From Verrucomicrobiota bacterium (lineage in GTDB: Bacteria; Verrucomicrobiota; Verrucomicrobiia; Limisphaerales; UBA11358): 38,821 nt of DNA. Numbering within the stretch: position 1 is the first letter of the stretch; every line of letters starts with the position of its first letter. Location of the stretch: the NCBI GenBank assembly GCA_021324235.1, contig JAJPJM010000176.1:1-38821 (forward strand). Direction: 5' to 3'. A program made the translations under genes and the position numbers. Below, piece by piece: positions 9,091 through 27,087 of the stretch. The notes under the pieces are model-generated. The model searched no databases. It was given only the letters and a program-made list of their open reading frames with translations, and was not told where the DNA came from.

Positions 9091-10578
9091 TCATTCCTCG
9101 GTCCGGCTGAAAATTTCGCCGATCTTTAGCCGCGTTTTCAAACGCCGGCCGCCTTTCACTTCGGCGGCGGCGCGCAAAACTTTTCCCGTTACCGCATCTG
9201 TCGTGATGGAATAACCGCGTGACAAAACCTGCTCCGGCCCGAGCAAACGCAGCCGCGCCTCCGTCGCACTGAAACGATTCCGCCAGTTTCGCAGCTGGAC
9301 CTGCGCCAACTCGCGTAGCCGGTGCCGGCTGGTTTTCAAAAGTTCGCGCCGTTGTTTCAACAACTGCGCGGGGCGCACCCGTGAAAGCCGCGTCGCCAGA
9401 TTCTGCCAGGCCACCTGCCGTTCCTTGGTGCCCTGCTTCGCACAACGCTGCAGGCCGGTTTGCAAATCGTCCAGCCGTTGCAGAAATTCATCCAATCGCC
9501 GCCGCGGATGCACCCGCGTCAGTCGTTCCTGTAACTGCTTGAATCCCGTGACGGCGTCTTCCAGTCGTTGGTGGACCATTCGCCGCAGCATACCCGGCGC
9601 TTCGGCCACAAACTCACGGCTGGCGAACACGCCTTCGGTGATGATTTCCGCCGCCGCACTCGGCGTCGCCGCCCGCGCGTCCGCCACAAAATCGCTGATC
9701 GTGAAATCGATCTCATGTCCGATGGCCGACACCACCGGGATTGCCGATTCAAAAATCGCGCGGGCCACGACTTCCTCGTTGAACGCCCACAAATCCTCCA
9801 GCGATCCGCCGCCGCGAGTAACGAGGATCAAATCCAATCCATTATTGGTAGGGACGGCGCGCTGCGCCGTCCGGTCGTCGCAGCGCGACGACCCTACTTG
9901 TGAAACGTGCCATTCGTTAAGCAGCCGGATGGCGGCTGCAATTTCCGCCGCCGCGCCGTCGCCTTGCACGCGGCAGGGCGCGAGAATGATTTCCAGCGCC
10001 GGATTCCGCCGTTGCACCACGTGCAGCACGTCACGGATGGCCGCGCCGGTCGGCGACGTCACCAAGCCGATGCGTTGCGGATATTTGGGCAACGGCCGTT
10101 TCCGTTCCGGTGCAAACAGGCCTTCGGCCGCCAGCTGTTGCTTGAGCTTTTCAAAGGCGATTTGCAGTGCGCCGACGCCCTGCAGTTCCACCGCCCGCAC
10201 GATGAGCTGGTACTGGCCGCGCGCCTCATAGACCGTCACATCACCCTGTAGCAGAAGCTTTTGGCCATCCTGCAACACGCTGCGGTTCCTGACCGCCTCA
10301 CCCCGGAACAGCACGCAACTCAACTGCGCCCCGGCGTCCTTGAGCGTGAAGTACATGTGACCGGAACTCTGTGCGCGCAAATTGGTGACCTCGCCCGTTA
10401 CCCAGACCGAGCCGACCGATTTTTCCAGCAACCGCTTGACCTGTGTCGTCAGTTCCGAGACGGACAAAACCGTTCGTCCCGCACTGCGGGATTCCGTCGG
10501 ATTGGTCGCACCGGAACTTCCCGACGAAGATGGAAACAACTCACCGAAGTCCCATTGCGATTTGACTGGCTTGCTCAT
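9091..10578 (-). CDS. xseA: exodeoxyribonuclease VII large subunit, with an in-frame repeat insertion
   Basis: 495 residues; relatives are commonly near 400-460. Order: a Ser/Thr-rich N-terminal extension, an OB-fold (about 38-135) with VGSVWVTGEVTNLR and GHMYFTLKD, the catalytic region with PQRIGLVTSPTGAAIRDVLHV, then DLILVTRGGGSLEDLWAFNE and SAIGHEIDFTISDFVADARA, and a long coiled-coil C-terminus. Between the helix before strand DLILV and that strand, residues 228-244 (about SQVGSSRCDDRTAQRAVPT) are encoded by a palindromic repeat at 9848-9897 and have no counterpart in the family pattern. All catalytic motifs remain, so the enzyme is probably active. It begins directly after the rimO stop and precedes xseB. 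Confidence 0.95.
   Translation of the reverse strand: MSKPVKSQWDFGELFPSSSGSSGATNPTESRSAGRTVLSVSELTTQVKRLLEKSVGSVWVTGEVTNLRAQSSGHMYFTLKDAGAQLSCVLFRGEAVRNRSVLQDGQKLLLQGDVTVYEARGQYQLIVRAVELQGVGALQIAFEKLKQQLAAEGLFAPERKRPLPKYPQRIGLVTSPTGAAIRDVLHVVQRRNPALEIILAPCRVQGDGAAAEIAAAIRLLNEWHVSQVGSSRCDDRTAQRAVPTNNGLDLILVTRGGGSLEDLWAFNEEVVARAIFESAIPVVSAIGHEIDFTISDFVADARAATPSAAAEIITEGVFASREFVAEAPGMLRRMVHQRLEDAVTGFKQLQERLTRVHPRRRLDEFLQRLDDLQTGLQRCAKQGTKERQVAWQNLATRLSRVRPAQLLKQRRELLKTSRHRLRELAQVQLRNWRNRFSATEARLRLLGPEQVLSRGYSITTDAVTGKVLRAAAEVKGGRRLKTRLKIGEIFSRTEE
9848..9897. repeat. palindromic element inside xseA
   Basis: Outer arms GTAGGG (9848-9853) and CCCTAC (9892-9897) close two perfect inner hairpins: ACGGCGC-GCT-GCGCCGT and GGTCGTCGC-AGC-GCGACGACC. 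As RNA or single-stranded DNA this makes a three-way junction. The open frame of xseA continues through it. The same architecture and near-identical GGTAGGG arm occur at 25883-25940 in purL. Confidence 0.85.
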
Positions 10579-13946: not shown

Positions 13947-15323
13947 TCATTGGTTTCCCTGTGCGGTGGCCAGTTCACGCCGCGCAAACAGGCCGATGCC
14001 CATCGCGCTGATGACACCGCCCAGCAGCAGCACGATTTGCCCGAAAGCGGCGCCCAGCTCGCTCCAGGGAATGGCGCGTCCGGTGCTCAGCGAATCAATC
14101 GGCGAAAAGTCCTGTACCAGATTGATGAGCGGCAGGATGACCCGGTAAAGGGGAAGTAACACCATGTCGGCCAGGGAAGGCCCGGTGCTTTGACCGACAA
14201 TACCGGTTGTCCCCGAAGCCACCGCGTTGGCCAGGGTTCCGCCGGAGAACACCACCACCAGCACGGCCAGCGAAAAGAAGGTGGCCACCGGAAACGACAG
14301 AAAACTGGCTGAAGTCAGCCCAATCGCCGCCAGCAGCGCCATCCAGCAAAAAAGAATTCCCAGACCGCGGGCAAAATTCAGCGTGAAACTGCTTTGGGGA
14401 TACAACACTTCCATCCCGTCCTCGATCGGAAACAACATCGTCGTGTTGTTGGGGTTCAAAAAGGCAATCGTCAGCACCCCCTGGTTGTTGAACAGGTCCG
14501 CCGGAATTTCAAACTCATGGTAGGTGTCCGGCGACAGGCTCATTGGTTCACTGCGCCAGACGTTGGCCGTTCCCGGCTCGCCGACCTGCCACAGCCCGAT
14601 AAACGTGCCGGACGGGTTGTTCTGCGCGGTATTGAACTTCACGCGCAGTTGCAGCGGCCGGCCGTGCAGAAAATTTTTGGCGAACCCCAGATCAATCTGC
14701 CATTCGCGGGTGTAACCGGACGGCACCAGCTGATAAGCCGCCTTGACCTGCTCCCGGAGCTGCTGCCGCGCCAGGGCCAGGTCTGCGCCCGAAATCTGGG
14801 TCTGTTTCAAACGTTGCTGCAACAGTTGCTCCGTCTGGGCGTCAATGTCCGCATTATGGTCCGCCGGTTGCGCCACGCCGCGCGCCACGAGCACCTGCGT
14901 GCGTAAAACTTCCTGTTCCGCCGCCGGCAACCGGGTGGCGCGCCATTGCAGCAGGCCATAGACGCTCGCGCCCGACAACGCCAGCAACGCGGCGTTCAGC
15001 GACACGATGCCCAGCCATTTGCCCAGCCAGATTTGCCAGCGCGCCACCGGTTTGGAGGCGACCACCTGGATCTGGCATTCCTCGATGTCCCGGGCCAGCG
15101 TGCCGCAGGCCAGCCAGAGCGTGGACAGCCCGAGCAGCGCGGTGATCACGCTCAGGGTATAGGTGATTAAAATCTGCGTGAACCCGCGCGCCGTGCCGTC
15201 ATCCTTGAGCAACAGCGGCAGCCCGACGACCGCCGCCAGCAACAGCACGGCGATGACCAGGAACAGCCGGAAGCGAAACGCGGCTTTCCAGGTCAACCAG
15301 GCGATGGCGAGAATTTTTTGCAT
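13947..15323 (-). CDS. ABC-2 type transporter permease with large extracytoplasmic loop
   Basis: 458 residues. One helix near the N-terminus (about 16-38), then two or three (about 48-70 and 108-130), a large soluble loop (about 135-310), and four or five C-terminal helices (about 318-450). The pattern TLWLACGTLARDIEECQIQVVASKPVARWQIWLGKWLG matches ABC-2 permeases of the NosY/ABC-2 group, where the helix after LARDIE-type residues contacts the ATPase. The loop resembles a small beta domain. Its partner ATPase is the gene directly upstream. The palindrome at 15330-15393 fills the gap between them. Confidence 0.85.
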   Translation of the reverse strand: MQKILAIAWLTWKAAFRFRLFLVIAVLLLAAVVGLPLLLKDDGTARGFTQILITYTLSVITALLGLSTLWLACGTLARDIEECQIQVVASKPVARWQIWLGKWLGIVSLNAALLALSGASVYGLLQWRATRLPAAEQEVLRTQVLVARGVAQPADHNADIDAQTEQLLQQRLKQTQISGADLALARQQLREQVKAAYQLVPSGYTREWQIDLGFAKNFLHGRPLQLRVKFNTAQNNPSGTFIGLWQVGEPGTANVWRSEPMSLSPDTYHEFEIPADLFNNQGVLTIAFLNPNNTTMLFPIEDGMEVLYPQSSFTLNFARGLGILFCWMALLAAIGLTSASFLSFPVATFFSLAVLVVVFSGGTLANAVASGTTGIVGQSTGPSLADMVLLPLYRVILPLINLVQDFSPIDSLSTGRAIPWSELGAAFGQIVLLLGGVISAMGIGLFARRELATAQGNQ

Positions 15324-15329
15324 TTTTTT

Positions 15330-15393
15330 AACCGCGGATTTCGCGGATGACGCGGATACAAAACTGTCCGTGTTCTCCGTGCAATCCGCGGTT
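15330..15393. repeat. nonamer-type palindromic repeat ending on a stop codon
   Basis: AACCGCGGAT at 15330-15339 pairs perfectly with ATCCGCGGTT at 15384-15393. Inside the left half GCGGAT recurs every nine bases (GCGGATTTC, GCGGATGAC, GCGGATACA). The element fills nearly the whole gap between the ABC ATPase and permease genes, and its last base is the first plus-strand base (15393) of the ATPase stop codon. Confidence 0.85.
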
Positions 15394-16610
15394 CATTTTG
15401 ATTTCTTCAGCAGCGACGAAAGTGTTTCATCCGCTTTTGACAAATCCACCGGCTCTGTCTTCGCGGCGGGAGCGGATTTGGCTGGGGCCGCCGGTTCCGT
15501 CGCCTTGGTCAAGGTTTCGAGTTTCCGCTCGTTGACGGCGGGTTCCGCCGGCGAGGCGGGCTGTGGTTTGGCCACCGGCCGGGCGGCTTCCGGCAGGGCC
15601 AGGCGTTCCAGGATTTTTTCCGTGGCCGGGGGTGGTTCCTGGGCGCCTGCCCGCAGATACGGCGCCACCCGGGCGCCGGAGATCGCGCCGCTCGTTTCCG
15701 CGGCGGCCTGACGCGCCCGCTGCACCACGTCGAGAAAATAGCTTTCCAGGTTTTGCGTCGGGTTATCCACGCGCACCTTGTCCGCGGCCACGTCGCGGCG
15801 AACAATTTCCAGCACGCGCTCCAGCGTTTCCCGCGGCAGCACCGGGGTCGTGATGCGCAGCGTGTCCGGCGTGGCGAGCAGCTCCTTGAGCGTGCCCATC
15901 GCCTGGATTTTGCCACCGTAATAAATCACCACCCGATCGCAGACGTCCTCCACGTCTGCCAGCAGGTGACTGCTCAGAATCACCGTCTTGCCGCGACGGG
16001 CCAGCGCCAGAATCAGGTCCTTCACTTCGCGGCAGCCGATCGGATCGAGGCCGGAAGTCGGCTCGTCCAGAATGACCAGGTCGGGGTCGTTGATCAGCGC
16101 CTGCGCCAGGCCGATGCGGCGCTGCATGCCCTTGGAAAATTCACCCACCACGCGCGTCTGGACCTTGCCCAGGCCGACCATTTCGAGCAATTGTTCCGTG
16201 CGATTGTTGCGTTCGCCCTTGGGCAGGTGAAACAGGTTCCCGAAAAAATCCAGCGTCTCGCGCGAATTGAGGTAGCGATAGAGATAGGATTCCTCCGGCA
16301 GATAGCCAATGCGCGATTTCGTCTGCACGTGCCGCGGCGAATGGCCGAAGACCTCGATGTGTCCCTTGGTGGGGTACAGCAACCCAAGCATCAGCTTCAC
16401 CGTCGTGGATTTGCCGGAGCCGTTGGGCCCGAGCAGGCCGAACACTTCGCCCTGCCGGACTTCAAAATCCACGTTGTCCACCGCGCGGGCCTTGGGACGG
16501 TTCCAGAAATCCTTGAAGACCTTCGTCAGCCCGCGGACGGAGACGACGACCTCGCCGGTGGACTGCGGATGGCGGACTGCGGATGGCGGACTGGATTCGG
16601 TTACGGGCAT
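15393..16610 (-). CDS. ABC transporter ATP-binding protein
   Basis: 405 residues. Walker A GPNGSGKST at 61-69, Q-loop near YLPEESYLYRYLNSRETL, signature FSKGMQRR at 158-165, Walker B with ILDEPTSGLD at 180-189 and the switch His H215. It energises an ABC-2 exporter, most likely with the permease immediately downstream and perhaps also the one at 22769-23731. Beyond about residue 300 the protein has an unusual Ala/Pro/Glu-rich, probably disordered tail of roughly 100 residues. The first codons (residues 6-17) are encoded by a heptanucleotide array, so the true start could instead be a later codon; the domain itself begins near residue 21. Confidence 0.9.
   Translation of the reverse strand: MPVTESSPPSAVRHPQSTGEVVVSVRGLTKVFKDFWNRPKARAVDNVDFEVRQGEVFGLLGPNGSGKSTTVKLMLGLLYPTKGHIEVFGHSPRHVQTKSRIGYLPEESYLYRYLNSRETLDFFGNLFHLPKGERNNRTEQLLEMVGLGKVQTRVVGEFSKGMQRRIGLAQALINDPDLVILDEPTSGLDPIGCREVKDLILALARRGKTVILSSHLLADVEDVCDRVVIYYGGKIQAMGTLKELLATPDTLRITTPVLPRETLERVLEIVRRDVAADKVRVDNPTQNLESYFLDVVQRARQAAAETSGAISGARVAPYLRAGAQEPPPATEKILERLALPEAARPVAKPQPASPAEPAVNERKLETLTKATEPAAPAKSAPAAKTEPVDLSKADETLSSLLKKSK
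16560..16594. repeat. heptanucleotide array at the start of the ABC ATPase gene
   Basis: Five seven-base units: GGACTGC, GGATGGC, GGACTGC, GGATGGC, GGACTGG. It encodes residues about 6-17 of the ATPase if translation starts at 16610. Same period as the arrays in rimO and upstream of icd but a different sequence. Confidence 0.88.
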
Positions 16611-23858: not shown

Positions 23859-26360
23859 TCAAACCATCGCCCGCGCAATGGCGTTCCACCATCGGTCGTG
23901 CAATTCCGCCGCCGGCACGCTGAGTTCACCGGCGGCCGTCTTGATGGATAATTGATCGCCGCCGACCCGGCCGATTTGCACCGCCGGAACCCCCAGCAGT
24001 TTCGCGCGTTCCACCACTTTCACCGCGTCGAGCGGGTTACAGGTGATCACGACGCGGCTTTGCGTTTCGCCAAAGAGCAAGGCGTCAATCCGGTGGGGCG
24101 GGACTCCGTCGAGTCCTGACTTTTGCTCACCTTCGGATTTTTGGGCTCGAGCGGACTCCCGCCCCACCAAAGAAAGATCGATCGCTGCCCCGATCAGCCT
24201 TGGTGTCCCGCGCGCCACGAGCTGGCTGATGCAGCTTTCCGCCAGACAGACCGCCAGGCCGCCTTCGCTGCAATCATGCGCGCTCTTGATGAGGCCCGAC
24301 TGAATCAGGCCCAGCAAGGTGGTATGCAACGTTCTGGCCGGTTCCAAATCGCAGCGCGGCGGGGTGCCGGTTTTCTTTCCGTGTACGGCCTGCAACCAGG
24401 CCGAACCGCCGAGCCCCAGCAAAGGGTCGTTCGCATCCACGGGTTCGCCAAGCAGGACGACGGCATCGCCTTCGTCCTTGAACCATTGCGTCGTGATATG
24501 TTCCGGTTTTTCAATCAGGCCGACCATGGCGACGGTGGGTGTGGGGTCAATCGGCCCGGCGGGACTTTGATTGTAGAGCGAGCAATTGCCGCCGGTGACC
24601 GGCGTGTTGAACGCCTGGCATGCGTCTGCCAGCCCGCGCACGGATTCCTTGAGCTGCCAGAACAACTCCGGCTTGAACGGATTGCCGTAATTCAAATTAT
24701 CCGTCACGCCCAGTGGTACCGCGCCGGAACAGGCCAGATTTCGCGCGGCCTCGGTCACGACAATTTTGCCGCCCTCGTAGGGATCGAGATAGACGTAGGC
24801 GCCGTTGCCATCCACCGTCAGTGCAATGAGTTTTTCGGGAATGGTGGGGCGAGAGTCCTCTCGAGCCCGGTCTTCGGAAAATTTGGGCTCGACGGAGTCT
24901 CGCCCCACCAAATCCGGAAGACTATCCGACTTGATCCGCAACACGGCGGCGTCACTGCCGGGGCAAATCGCCGAACCGTCGCGCACCATATGATCGTATT
25001 GCCGGTAAACCCAGTTCTTCGACGCAATCGTCGGCCAGGCGAGCAAGGTGAGGAGATCGCGCCCGGGGTCTGGCGACTGGGGGATTTCGTCCAACCGGAA
25101 CGCGCGCACTTCCTTCAAATACACCGGTTCCCGGGCTTCGCGCTGATATACCGGCGATTCGTCGGCAATCTTTTTGGCCGGAATGTCTGCCACGACATTG
25201 CCATGCTGTTTCACCACCATGCGGCCGGTGTCGGTGACAAAGCCGATTTCCGACCACGGCAAATCCCATTTGTCGAAGATGCGTTTCACTTCTTCTTCCC
25301 GGCCCTTGTGAACGATGATGAGCATCCGCTCCTGCGATTCCGAAAGCATGAGGTCGTAGCTCGTCATGTTCGGCGCGCGCTGCGGGACCTTGTCCAGTTC
25401 GATTTCGATGCCCGTGCCGGCGCGGGCGGCGGTCTCGCAGGTCGAGCAGGTCAACCCCGCCGCGCCCATGTCCTGAATGCCCGCCACCGCGCCGGTGGCC
25501 AGCAGTTCCAGGCAGGCTTCGCACACGAGTTTTTCCATGAACGGATCGCCCACCTGCACCGCGCCGCGCTGTTGCTCGGCGGATTCCTCGGTCAAATCCT
25601 GCGACGCAAACGACGCGCCGGCGAGGCCATCGCGACCGGTGGGCGGACCGACGTAAAAAACCGGGTTGCCGATGCCTTTGGCCGCGCCGCGCGCGATTTG
25701 TTCGTGGCGCAACACGCCGAGGCAGAAGGCATTCACGAGCGGATTGCCTTCATAGGATTTGTCGAAATAAACTTCGCCGGCGATGGTCGGAATGCCAAAG
25801 CAATTGCCGTAATGCGCGATCCCAGCTACGACGCCCGCGAACAGGCGTTTGTTATTTGCGATTTGTTGCGCCGTCAATTCCTGGTAGGGCGCGGTGTCCG
25901 CACCGCGCCGCTCGGCGGGCTGGGGACAGCCCGCCCTGCCTTCACCGTTCGTGATGGGCCCGAATCTTAGCGAATTGACCGAGCAAATCGGCCGGGCGCC
26001 CATGGTGAAAATGTCGCGCACGATGCCGCCGACGCCTGTGGCCGCGCCCTGGAATGGCTCGACCGCGCTGGGATGGTTGTGCGATTCAATCTTGAACGCG
26101 ATGGCCAGGCCGTCGCCGATGTCAATGATGCCGGCATTTTCCTCGCCTGCGCCGACGAGGATTTTTTTGGATTTGGTGGGAAAGGTTTTGAGCAGCGGGC
26201 GGGTGTTTTTGTAGCTGCAATGTTCGCTCCACATCACCGAGAAGATGCCCAGCTCGGTGTAACTCGGCTCGCGCCCCAGCAGTTCGAGGATTTTTTTATA
26301 CTCGTCCGGCGTAAGGTTGTGTTTGGCAACCAGTTCGGGGGTGATGGCGGGTTCGGTCAT
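23859..26360 (-). CDS. purL: phosphoribosylformylglycinamidine synthase, large subunit, with three repeat insertions
   Basis: 833 residues from the ATG at 26360; small-type PurL is usually about 720-750. It makes FGAM from FGAR, ATP and glutamine-derived ammonia with PurQ and PurS. Seen: [121 protein letters not shown] and [12 protein letters not shown]. Three stretches outside the family pattern coincide with palindromic repeats: residues about 141-160, 484-507 and 732-757. Each sits between conserved blocks and the frame is kept. purQ ends 13 bases upstream; an alternative start 18 codons earlier is open but would run into purQ. Confidence 0.96.
24092..24168. repeat. palindromic element A inside purL
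   Basis: Arms GGTGGGGCGGGA (24092-24103) and TCCCGCCCCACC (24157-24168) are perfectly complementary, and pairing resumes further in (TCCG, then TCGAG). PurL reads it as [19 protein letters not shown] followed by LDGVPPHR, just before the conserved LLFGETQSR. It is the same family as element B, in the opposite orientation. Confidence 0.92.
24842..24910. repeat. palindromic element B inside purL
   Basis: Arms TGGTGGGGCGAGA (24842-24854) and TCTCGCCCCACCA (24898-24910) are perfect 13-base complements, with GAGCCC/GGGCTC pairing further in. Length 69 bases, i.e. 23 codons. PurL reads [19 protein letters not shown] and SRPT, ahead of the conserved IALTVDGNG. Its reverse complement matches the first 25 or so bases of element A with two differences. 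Confidence 0.93.
25883..25940. repeat. palindromic element C inside purL
   Basis: Arms GGTAGGG (25883-25889) and CCCTGCC (25934-25940) pair with one G-T. They close two perfect hairpins: GCGCGGTG-TCCG-CACCGCGC and GGCGGGCT-GGGGAC-AGCCCGCC. PurL reads [20 protein letters not shown] here, between NSLRFGPI and the conserved [13 protein letters not shown]. Architecture and arm match the element in xseA. Confidence 0.9.
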
Positions 26361-26373
26361 GGGGAAAAGCTGC

Positions 26374-27087
26374 TCATGCTGCTTTGGCCACGGTTCTGTT
26401 TTGCAACGTTGCAATCATGCTCTCAAAAATCCAGCGGCCGTCGTCGCTGGCGAGCAGCCGTTCGCAGGCGCGTTCGGGATGCGGCATCAGGCCGGCCACA
26501 TTGCGGCGTTCGTTGCAGATGCCGGCGATGTTCAGCAACGAACCGTTCGGATTGGCGCCTTCGGTCAACTCACCCGTGGCGGAACAGTATTGCCATAAAA
26601 TCCGGTTGTTGGCCTTGAGTTCGGCCAGGGTTTCCTCATCAGCAAAATAGCAGCCTTCGCCGTGGGCGATGGGAATTTTCAGCCATTTGCCCTCGGGAAT
26701 TTTGTTCGTAAACGGCGAGTCGGGCGTGGCGGTCTTCAGGAAAATGTGCTCGCAGTGGAATTGCAGGTCACGGTTGCGGACCAGCGCGCCGGGCAAGAGG
26801 CCGGCTTCCGTGAGCACCTGGAAACCGTTGCAGATGCCGAGCACGAGGCCGCCGTTGTCGGCAAATTGTTTCACCGCCTGCATCACCGGGCTGAACCGCG
26901 CGATTGCGCCGCAGCGCAGATAATCGCCGTAGCTGAAGCCGCCGGGCACGATGACGGCATCAGCATCGCCGAGCGAGGTTTCCTTGTGCCAGACGTAGCG
27001 CGCCGGATGGCCCAGCACATCGCGCAGGGCGTGAATGGCATCCTGGTCGCAGTTGGAGGCGGGAAATTGGAGAACAGCAAAGTTCAT
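26374..27087 (-). CDS. purQ: phosphoribosylformylglycinamidine synthase, glutaminase subunit
   Basis: 237 residues from the ATG at 27087, giving the standard start [17 protein letters not shown]. Class I glutamine amidotransferase: it frees ammonia from glutamine for PurL. Seen: [19 protein letters not shown], the nucleophile elbow [23 protein letters not shown], and the C-terminal HGEGCYFA and [11 protein letters not shown] with the catalytic His-Glu. An open frame extends upstream through the CACAGAG repeat, but those 36 residues are repeat translation and are excluded. Confidence 0.96.

Follow-up and report, generated by a model that had tools for sequence, protein, structure and literature searches.

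REP dimers in frame in purL and RAYT transposases embedded in conserved proteins of the same verrucomicrobial genus

The 38,821-nt stretch analysed here (hereafter the window) comprises positions 1 to 38,821 of the forward strand of contig JAJPJM010000176.1, from the assembly GCA_021324235.1 of a Verrucomicrobiota bacterium. It carries a purL gene, encoding subunit II of formylglycinamidine ribonucleotide (FGAM) synthase, that holds three in-frame palindromic dimers, designated A, B and C (Table 1). The encoded protein matches the NCBIfam PurL equivalog at E 8.6e-283; the stop codon occupies positions 23859-23861 and the conserved start Met probably lies at 26360. An earlier note, made from the letters alone, had described A and B as two palindromes of one family lying in frame within a core enzyme whose motifs are kept, and this description proved accurate in its coordinates, sequence, arms and frame. 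Its count of two insertions was correct for that family and incomplete for the gene, since C is a third dimer, of a different family, and purL thus has three landing sites.

Table 1. Features of the purL locus, in positions of the window
Feature	Position	Strand	Description
purL (FGAM synthase subunit II)	23862..26414	-	host open reading frame (ORF), 851 aa, open throughout
Element A	24092..24168		inverted GTGG-REP dimer, landing site A, PurL aa 749-775
REP unit A-left	24092..24116	+	GTGG tag and hairpin
REP unit A-right	24143..24168	-	GTGG REP
Element B	24842..24910		inverted GTGG-REP dimer, landing site B, PurL aa 502-524
REP unit B-left	24843..24868	+	GTGG REP
REP unit B-right	24885..24909	-	GTGG REP
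Element C	25883..25940		dimer of a second, GTAG-tagged REP family, landing site C, PurL aa about 158-178

The arms of element A, GGTGGGGCGGGACTCCG and CGGACTCCCGCCCCACC (24092-24108 and 24152-24168), match at 94% over 17 nt with the outer 12 nt perfect, and those of element B, TGGTGGGGCGAGA... and ...TCTCGCCCCACCA, are perfect over 13 nt. As the earlier note had claimed, the ends of A and B match each other in inverted orientation, at 84% over 32 nt (I1) and 93% over 27 nt (I2). Each palindrome consists of two facing units of the form GGTGGGGCGRG-N8-10-GAGCC. When drawn as a hairpin, such a unit has, besides its GTGG tag, a stem of GGC/GCC, an internal GA/GA pair, a further stem of 3 variable bp and a short loop. 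When the arm GTGGGGCGRGASTCC was searched in the genome at up to 2 mismatches, 96 matches were obtained, compared with 17 for the reversed pattern; the whole unit (GGTGGGGCGRGN{8,10}GAGCC) gave 72 matches in this genome (G000) and 0 when reversed, among the matches listed. With the same restriction to the matches listed, the unit was present in 37 of 49 genomes of the genus, at no more than 180 copies per genome, and the arms singled out earlier thus recur well beyond purL. The unit of element C matched the genome 14 times at up to 3 mismatches (counting its own position), compared with 0 in the control.

The stem of the GTGG unit shows compensatory changes. In the 71 units contained in the fetched stretches (five of the 96 arm matches, on C4, C53, C99:10879, C112 and C127, lie outside this set), inner pair 1 is G-C in 71/71, pair 2 is A-T in 17, C-G in 29, a G.A mismatch in 19 and otherwise composed in 6, and pair 3 is C-G in 30, G-C in 39 and otherwise composed in 2. 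A tag variant (GTGG in A and B, GTAG in C), a stem-loop with compensatory changes and dispersed multicopy dimers are the marks of the GTAG superfamily of repetitive extragenic palindromes (REPs) and, on these sequence features, A and B are GTGG-tagged REP dimers of that superfamily, a known kind of element. Two further repeats were observed in the window. A GTAG-tagged REP-like dimer at 9848-9897, the fourth in-frame palindrome of the window, lies in xseA (ORF 9091-10578, minus strand; exonuclease VII large subunit by NCBIfam), and a 27-nt inverted repeat of 81% complementarity occupies 15330-15393, between ORFs 13947-15323 and 15393-16610.

Grouping of the GTGG units (at most 4 mismatches to five consensus units) yielded 53 elements, 31 of which are simple inverted (+-) dimers. 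When element positions were read against Pfam ranges, a count that leaves out further copies in long ORFs, 19 of the 53 fell within Pfam-domain genes and the remaining 34 had no verified genic position. The genic hosts are a GcvT-type and a MutY-type gene, a pseudouridine synthase/methyltransferase ORF, moeA, an inositol-phosphatase gene, a class II (D/K/N) tRNA synthetase gene, leuS, ribD, a radical-SAM gene, an SDR gene, dus, miaA, another pseudouridine synthase gene, pdxJ, a propeller gene, pheT, panC and, twice, purL. Of 33 dimers, 16 are genic and 17 have no verified genic position; lengths divisible by 3 occurred in 8 of the former and in 0 of the latter (Fisher p = 0.0009). This favours frame-keeping in genes, and is suggestive only, since one compact form prevails in the second group, which also includes unverified cases.

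Two ways in which the GTGG REP itself might be specialised were rejected. Tuning to one reading frame is contradicted by the occurrence of all three codon phases among 27 candidate genic copies, and exceptional freedom from stops by a merely moderate excess, 53 of 71 units being open in all six frames compared with 58% of dinucleotide shuffles. The suggestion of the earlier note that the palindrome is adapted to coding sequence did not hold up in that form: most elements are not verified as genic, and the REP is not clearly specialised. The apparent specialisation for coding sequence looks instead to lie in a transposase lineage of the same genus, described below.

The use of the three purL sites was followed in an alignment of 30 PurL rows, some partial, comprising the own sequence (G000) and 29 relatives; a purL match was found in 35 of the 40 relatives' genomes. 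Notable interior length variation was confined to G000 residues of about 156-183 (site C), 496-525 (site B) and 731-774 (site A). These regions coincide with the places where the alignment to the solved PurL structure 3viu breaks (query 157/186, 497/530 and 728/779). The residues encoded by A and B are missing from 3viu and from relatives with empty sites, in agreement with the earlier note, which had called them absent from the family. In the relatives, the three loops hold different, often palindromic, inserts or none. Site C consists of a bare 4 residues in 10 of the 30 rows and of 12 to 80 residues, mostly of unrelated sequence, in the other 20. With a strict test (score of at least 11 and 0/60 codon shuffles as high), palindromes were detected in 7/30 rows at C, 3/30 at B and 10/30 at A; several inserts, which by look are side-by-side hairpins, tandem heptamers or half-elements, fail it.

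Site A alone has received at least 6 sequence-distinct families, counted by eye. GTGG elements occupy it also in L131 (JACPZS010000041.1) and L141 (CAIKKJ010000191.1), both Verrucomicrobia, the latter of subdivision 3. The GTGG phase at this site is identical (V-G-R or V-G-Q) in the eight rows whose GTGG element was legible (G000, G005, G009, G017, G023, G026, L131 and L141), and the one phase shared by them may reflect common descent there. Composite inserts were observed at site C of L074 (G017) and L073 (G022) and at site A of L074, combining REP halves with palindromes of the CCCTCTCC type and tandem AAATCGC heptamers, which gives the impression that elements nest in or replace one another at the landing site.

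A structural model of PurL computed from the 30-row alignment reached a mean predicted local distance difference test (pLDDT) score of 82.6 and a predicted template modelling (pTM) score of 0.86. Within the inserts, pLDDT falls below 50 at residues 158-176, 505-521 and 763-772, and elsewhere only at 1-18 (the N-terminus), 114-117 and 269-274; short helices are drawn in the inserts at 514-518 and 752-759. The low confidence of the model in the three inserts is that of flexible loops, which would presumably lie at the protein surface. As judged from these alignments, insertion has recurred at the same three PurL loops in this clade, and several repeat families have used them in different species.

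The transposases associated with REPs (RAYTs) are Y1 HUH enzymes with a catalytic Tyr, and this genome contains 4 Y1_Tnp matches. One of them lies within priA, a 974-aa ORF (G000:C76, L127, 1194-4115), where the RAYT is inserted in frame directly before the Walker A motif and is bounded by inverted GTAG-type REPs (TGTGTAGCACCCGCGTC / GACGCGGGTGCTACACA). A second REP-like peptide pair (VAAVYDRRQTGETNAAVADRRYN) was noticed near the end of the same PriA. Elsewhere in the genome (L054 / L126, G000:C144), a free-standing RAYT ORF has GTAG-REPs of a different family (GCAGACATTCTTGTCTGC stem) on its flanks.

When the PriA RAYT was used as query, two groups of embedded RAYTs were distinguished: E1, its nearer relatives, and E2, a second group. 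Among the matches listed, where E1 stands well above the lowest, all 12 E1 matches of the genus lie inside long ORFs, and across 387 genomes elsewhere in the phylum all 7 additional matches of at least 52% identity lie in ORFs of 730-1316 aa. E1 is therefore embedded in 19/19 matches found, its hosts being AlaRS, ThrRS, PriA and RecG. The 9 best E2 matches in the genus (at least 51% identity) all lie in ORFs of 764-1469 aa, and the other 39 genus matches at E 1e-20 (50% identity or less) in ORFs of at most 393 aa. All E1 and genus E2 members are thus contained in ORFs of at least 698 aa, and no free-standing gene with its own start and stop was found among them.

Pfam scanning of 34 fusions identified AlaRS (10), PriA (6), ClpB (3), DnaE, RecG, MetH and an MgsA-type protein (2 each) and ThrRS, LeuRS, ValRS, IspG, a DinG-like helicase, an SNF2 helicase and HsdR (1 each) as hosts. 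Host sequence was read on both sides of the RAYT in 31 of the 34 (all but L300, L302 and L306). The AlaRS inserts split the PF01411 core, the LeuRS insert interrupts the editing domain, and the interrupted alaS was the only alaS copy in 11/11 genomes searched. Among 40 embedded loci, the HxH motif is present in 38 (20/20 in the genus and 18/20 in the wider phylum) and the catalytic Tyr motif in 19/20 genus rows and in 18/18 phylum rows with HxH; in the remaining genus row, L251, the sequence cut ended before the Tyr motif, and its ORF reads FHYICRNPW. In 30 of the 31 embedded loci tested for terminal repeats, REP-type terminal inverted repeats scored above the best of 30 codon shuffles, the exception, L301, having direct repeats. 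An ATG-encoded Met occurs within 45 aa upstream in 7/38 embedded and 14/21 free-standing RAYTs, a count of ATG and not of GTG or TTG that omits rows without the motif (2/40 embedded, 3/24 free-standing). Embedded RAYTs were not found in 80 named public loci (purL with at most 3 kb of flanking sequence per side), nor in plasmids, where the search gave 3 weak matches of 25-32% identity.

Phylogenetic trees group the embedded RAYTs more closely than shuffled labels do. The genus tree contained 41 rows, 20 with embedded and 21 with free-standing RAYTs, selected for their similarity to the query; L275, L276, L283 and L288-L290, which lack the motif, were left out, as were L297 and L303 from the wider tree, and L052 gave no match in the RAYT locus set. 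On the genus tree, the embedded label required 2 changes compared with a mean of 13.9 for shuffled labels, and 0/500 shuffles were as low. On a 59-row tree with members from across the phylum, it required 4 compared with 17.5; E1 formed one clade of 18 rows, all embedded, with support 92/80, and the MetH and IspG RAYTs formed a group of their own. The proposal of exactly two embedded lineages holds on the genus tree and was rejected on the 59-row tree, where E2 dissolves and E1 stays. Since E1 is one clade and its hosts differ, the embedded state outlives changes of host gene.

In 29 complete genus rows of PriA (two further rows being incomplete), an E1 RAYT occupies the site before Walker A in 4 and an E2 RAYT in 2; the remaining relatives carry other insert sequence or almost none. 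A tree of the PriA host needs 6 changes for the E1/E2 labels, no fewer than for shuffled labels, and on it G045 (E2) adjoins G046 (E1) with support 94/81. G000 and G022 share the same PriA-RAYT fusion and, between them, the ratio of nonsynonymous to synonymous substitution rates (dN/dS) is 0.19 for the RAYT, 0.84 and 0.78 for its REP flanks (21 and 32 codons) and 0.09 for the rest of PriA.

A connection between the small purL palindromes and the embedded transposases was found in G021, whose site-C insert in purL matches both ends of the AlaRS-embedded RAYT element of the same genome over 25/26 nt. For that family, the purL palindromes are therefore tied to embedded transposases. The GTGG family of A and B would be linked to RAYTs by kind only; within 67 RAYT loci, the single GTGG unit detected lies 595 nt from a RAYT-like ORF, in L290.

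On this basis, we propose that A and B are non-autonomous REP dimers which, by analogy, would have been moved as single-stranded DNA by RAYT (HUH/Tyr) transposases. Having landed in purL, they would have been kept since they fell in flexible loops, are free of stops in the frame used and preserve that frame. The autonomous versions in the genus would be the RAYTs which, between REP-type ends, form stop-free, mostly ATG-less in-frame domains of conserved proteins. Embedding would have two consequences: the host gene would express the transposase by read-through translation, within a fused protein that presumably still functions, and imprecise deletion would harm the host, which may protect the element. 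Taken as a whole, REP dimers kept in tolerated purL loops, together with RAYTs as in-frame domains in the same genus, are very probably the right explanation. We also lean, with more reserve, towards a stronger statement: that E1, and E2 within the genus, would be transposons living only as in-frame domains of conserved, mostly essential proteins, which retain no start or stop of their own, spread between host proteins as single-stranded DNA via their REP ends and cannot be imprecisely deleted without harm, the purL REP dimers being the non-autonomous fleet of such systems.

Several observations weigh against this interpretation. Concerning purL, the elements at A and B take the place of native loop residues, the rows with empty sites reading IDLS-xIKDV and DSLPVMSAELAAKV.... 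The presence and absence that the earlier note had looked for among relatives is thus real and not clean: from the alignment, only site C looks like a plain addition. The own element C fails the strict palindrome test (score 9, 1/60 shuffles as high), the dimer-length test mixes subfamilies, and arm spacers vary from one dimer copy to another, so that copying of the dimer as a whole would be conjectural. No RAYT with GTGG-REP ends, such as would make A and B REPINs (RAYT-dependent REP dimers), was found in the 67 loci, which cover part of the genus RAYTs, the genome of the window being about 91% complete, and mobilisation of A and B by RAYTs is for this reason proposed by analogy. Concerning the RAYTs, 65 further phylum matches comprise 23 in ORFs of at least 685 aa (13 of them fetched) and 42 in ORFs of at most 438 aa. 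E2 is not one supported clade on the 59-row tree, and the claim of an exclusively embedded lineage therefore rests on E1; the embedded RAYT of L298 falls among free-standing ones. Y1_Tnp is detected at E 1e-5 in 24 of the 34 fusions, the others being called RAYT by similarity to the query, and embedded loci L297 and L303 lack the HxH motif. Between G000 and G022, the synonymous divergence (dS) of the RAYT, 0.32, is well below that of its PriA host, 0.91; these values are more easily explained by recent movement or exchange than by simple inheritance of a single old insertion. Finally, most of the genomes are metagenome-assembled genomes (MAGs).

Among the alternatives, the one that survives best is that the purL elements are ordinary intragenic REP debris, which lands anywhere and is removed where harmful, the embedded RAYTs being occasional fusions without a lineage-specific life. 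The many GTGG elements without a verified genic position and the use of all three codon phases are what such a process would leave, in-frame REPs have already been published (in the available part of PMC3733652), and outside E1 the embedded and free-standing RAYTs are less cleanly apart. We nevertheless consider it unlikely, because E1 is embedded in every match found and forms one clade despite hosts as different as PriA, AlaRS, ThrRS and RecG, and because the embedded label changes far less often on the wider tree than shuffled labels do. Selection at the RNA level, with the elements acting in genes as mRNA structures in the manner of intergenic REPs, would agree with the strong predicted hairpins (-54 kcal/mol for the 90-nt stretch holding B, an absolute value without shuffle control) and with the roles of REPs in mRNA stability mentioned in the accessible text of PMC3733652. 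The host genes are of many kinds and the same purL sites accept quite different families and even tandem repeats, which makes regulation of this sort improbable.

That the purL inserts are functional protein insertions, such as regulatory or interaction loops, palindromic by chance, would explain their persistence in a core enzyme and their recurrence at the same sites. This is less credible still: the residues are unrelated between many species and derive from different repeat families, the model has low confidence in the inserts, and a third of the rows manage with four residues at site C. Assembly or binning artefacts are suggested by the predominance of MAGs and by L293, which ends in poor sequence at a contig edge, and can hardly be entertained for the fusions at large, since the reading frames run uninterrupted across both junctions in numerous independent genomes and families, three fusions lie on contigs of more than 340 kb, and G000 and G022 share the same PriA fusion.

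We thus return to REP dimers in tolerated loops and RAYTs as in-frame domains, and compare them with systems already described. In-frame palindromes in conserved genes recall the palindromic elements of Rickettsia, among which we know of no embedded transposase. The earlier note had named these elements as the precedent; this stands for the principle of an in-frame palindrome, a likeness by description that is also cited in the part of PMC3733652 available, and the nearest kind is the GTAG/GTGG-tagged REP superfamily, which was already recorded in frame within genes of one verrucomicrobium. According to the same partial text, the main known source of in-frame REP dimers is the verrucomicrobium Opitutus terrae, whose GTAG-20 family bears a GTGG tag in most units and in which one gene, uvrA, contains two intragenic REPs; recB in two Xanthomonas is one case of the same site being reused (PMC3733652). 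The family described here resembles GTAG-20 in its GTGG tag, stem-loop, inverted dimers, high copy number, partly genic position and verrucomicrobial host, a likeness drawn without comparison of stem sequences (PMC3733652, as excerpted). It differs from what that excerpt describes in that the same protein loops are reused by several repeat families across species and that RAYTs themselves occur in frame. Enterobacterial RU elements and the miniature inverted-repeat transposable elements (MITEs) of Coxiella are likewise small mobile repeats in genes, of other families and hosts (PMC2759123 and PMC5896051, in the portions available).

The embedded transposases share with REPtrons and RAYTs (TnpA-REP), as far as the available parts of PMC3733652 and PMC6006769 describe them, the Y1 HUH transposase, the catalytic Tyr and the flanking REPs or terminal inverted repeats. 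They depart from them in lacking their own stop, and usually an ATG, and in lying inside a host ORF. Inteins and homing endonucleases are selfish genes in frame in conserved proteins. The enzyme here, in contrast, is a HUH transposase with REP-type ends, no intein (Hint) domain was detected by Pfam at E 1e-5 among the 34 scanned fusions, and nothing suggests splicing. RAYTs in frame inside conserved proteins were not found in the literature covered, from which subscription journals and preprints were mostly absent. Stop-free RAYTs in frame inside host proteins thus look new, and the embedded RAYTs, E1 above all, represent a novel mode of existence within a transposase family that is itself known.

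These elements amount to a natural repeated experiment in protein insertion tolerance, in which the PurL loops and the PriA loop before Walker A have been used by unrelated elements. Such proteins may be lost from surveys if they are taken for fusions or annotation errors; one survey discarded unexpectedly long TnpA-Y1 proteins on these grounds (PMC6006769, in the part available). The spread of RAYTs and REPs has been called poorly understood (in the accessible portion of PMC8266576). If the embedded RAYTs are expressed within their host proteins, that spread would become testable, and they would represent a second solution, besides inteins, for hiding a selfish gene in an essential gene.

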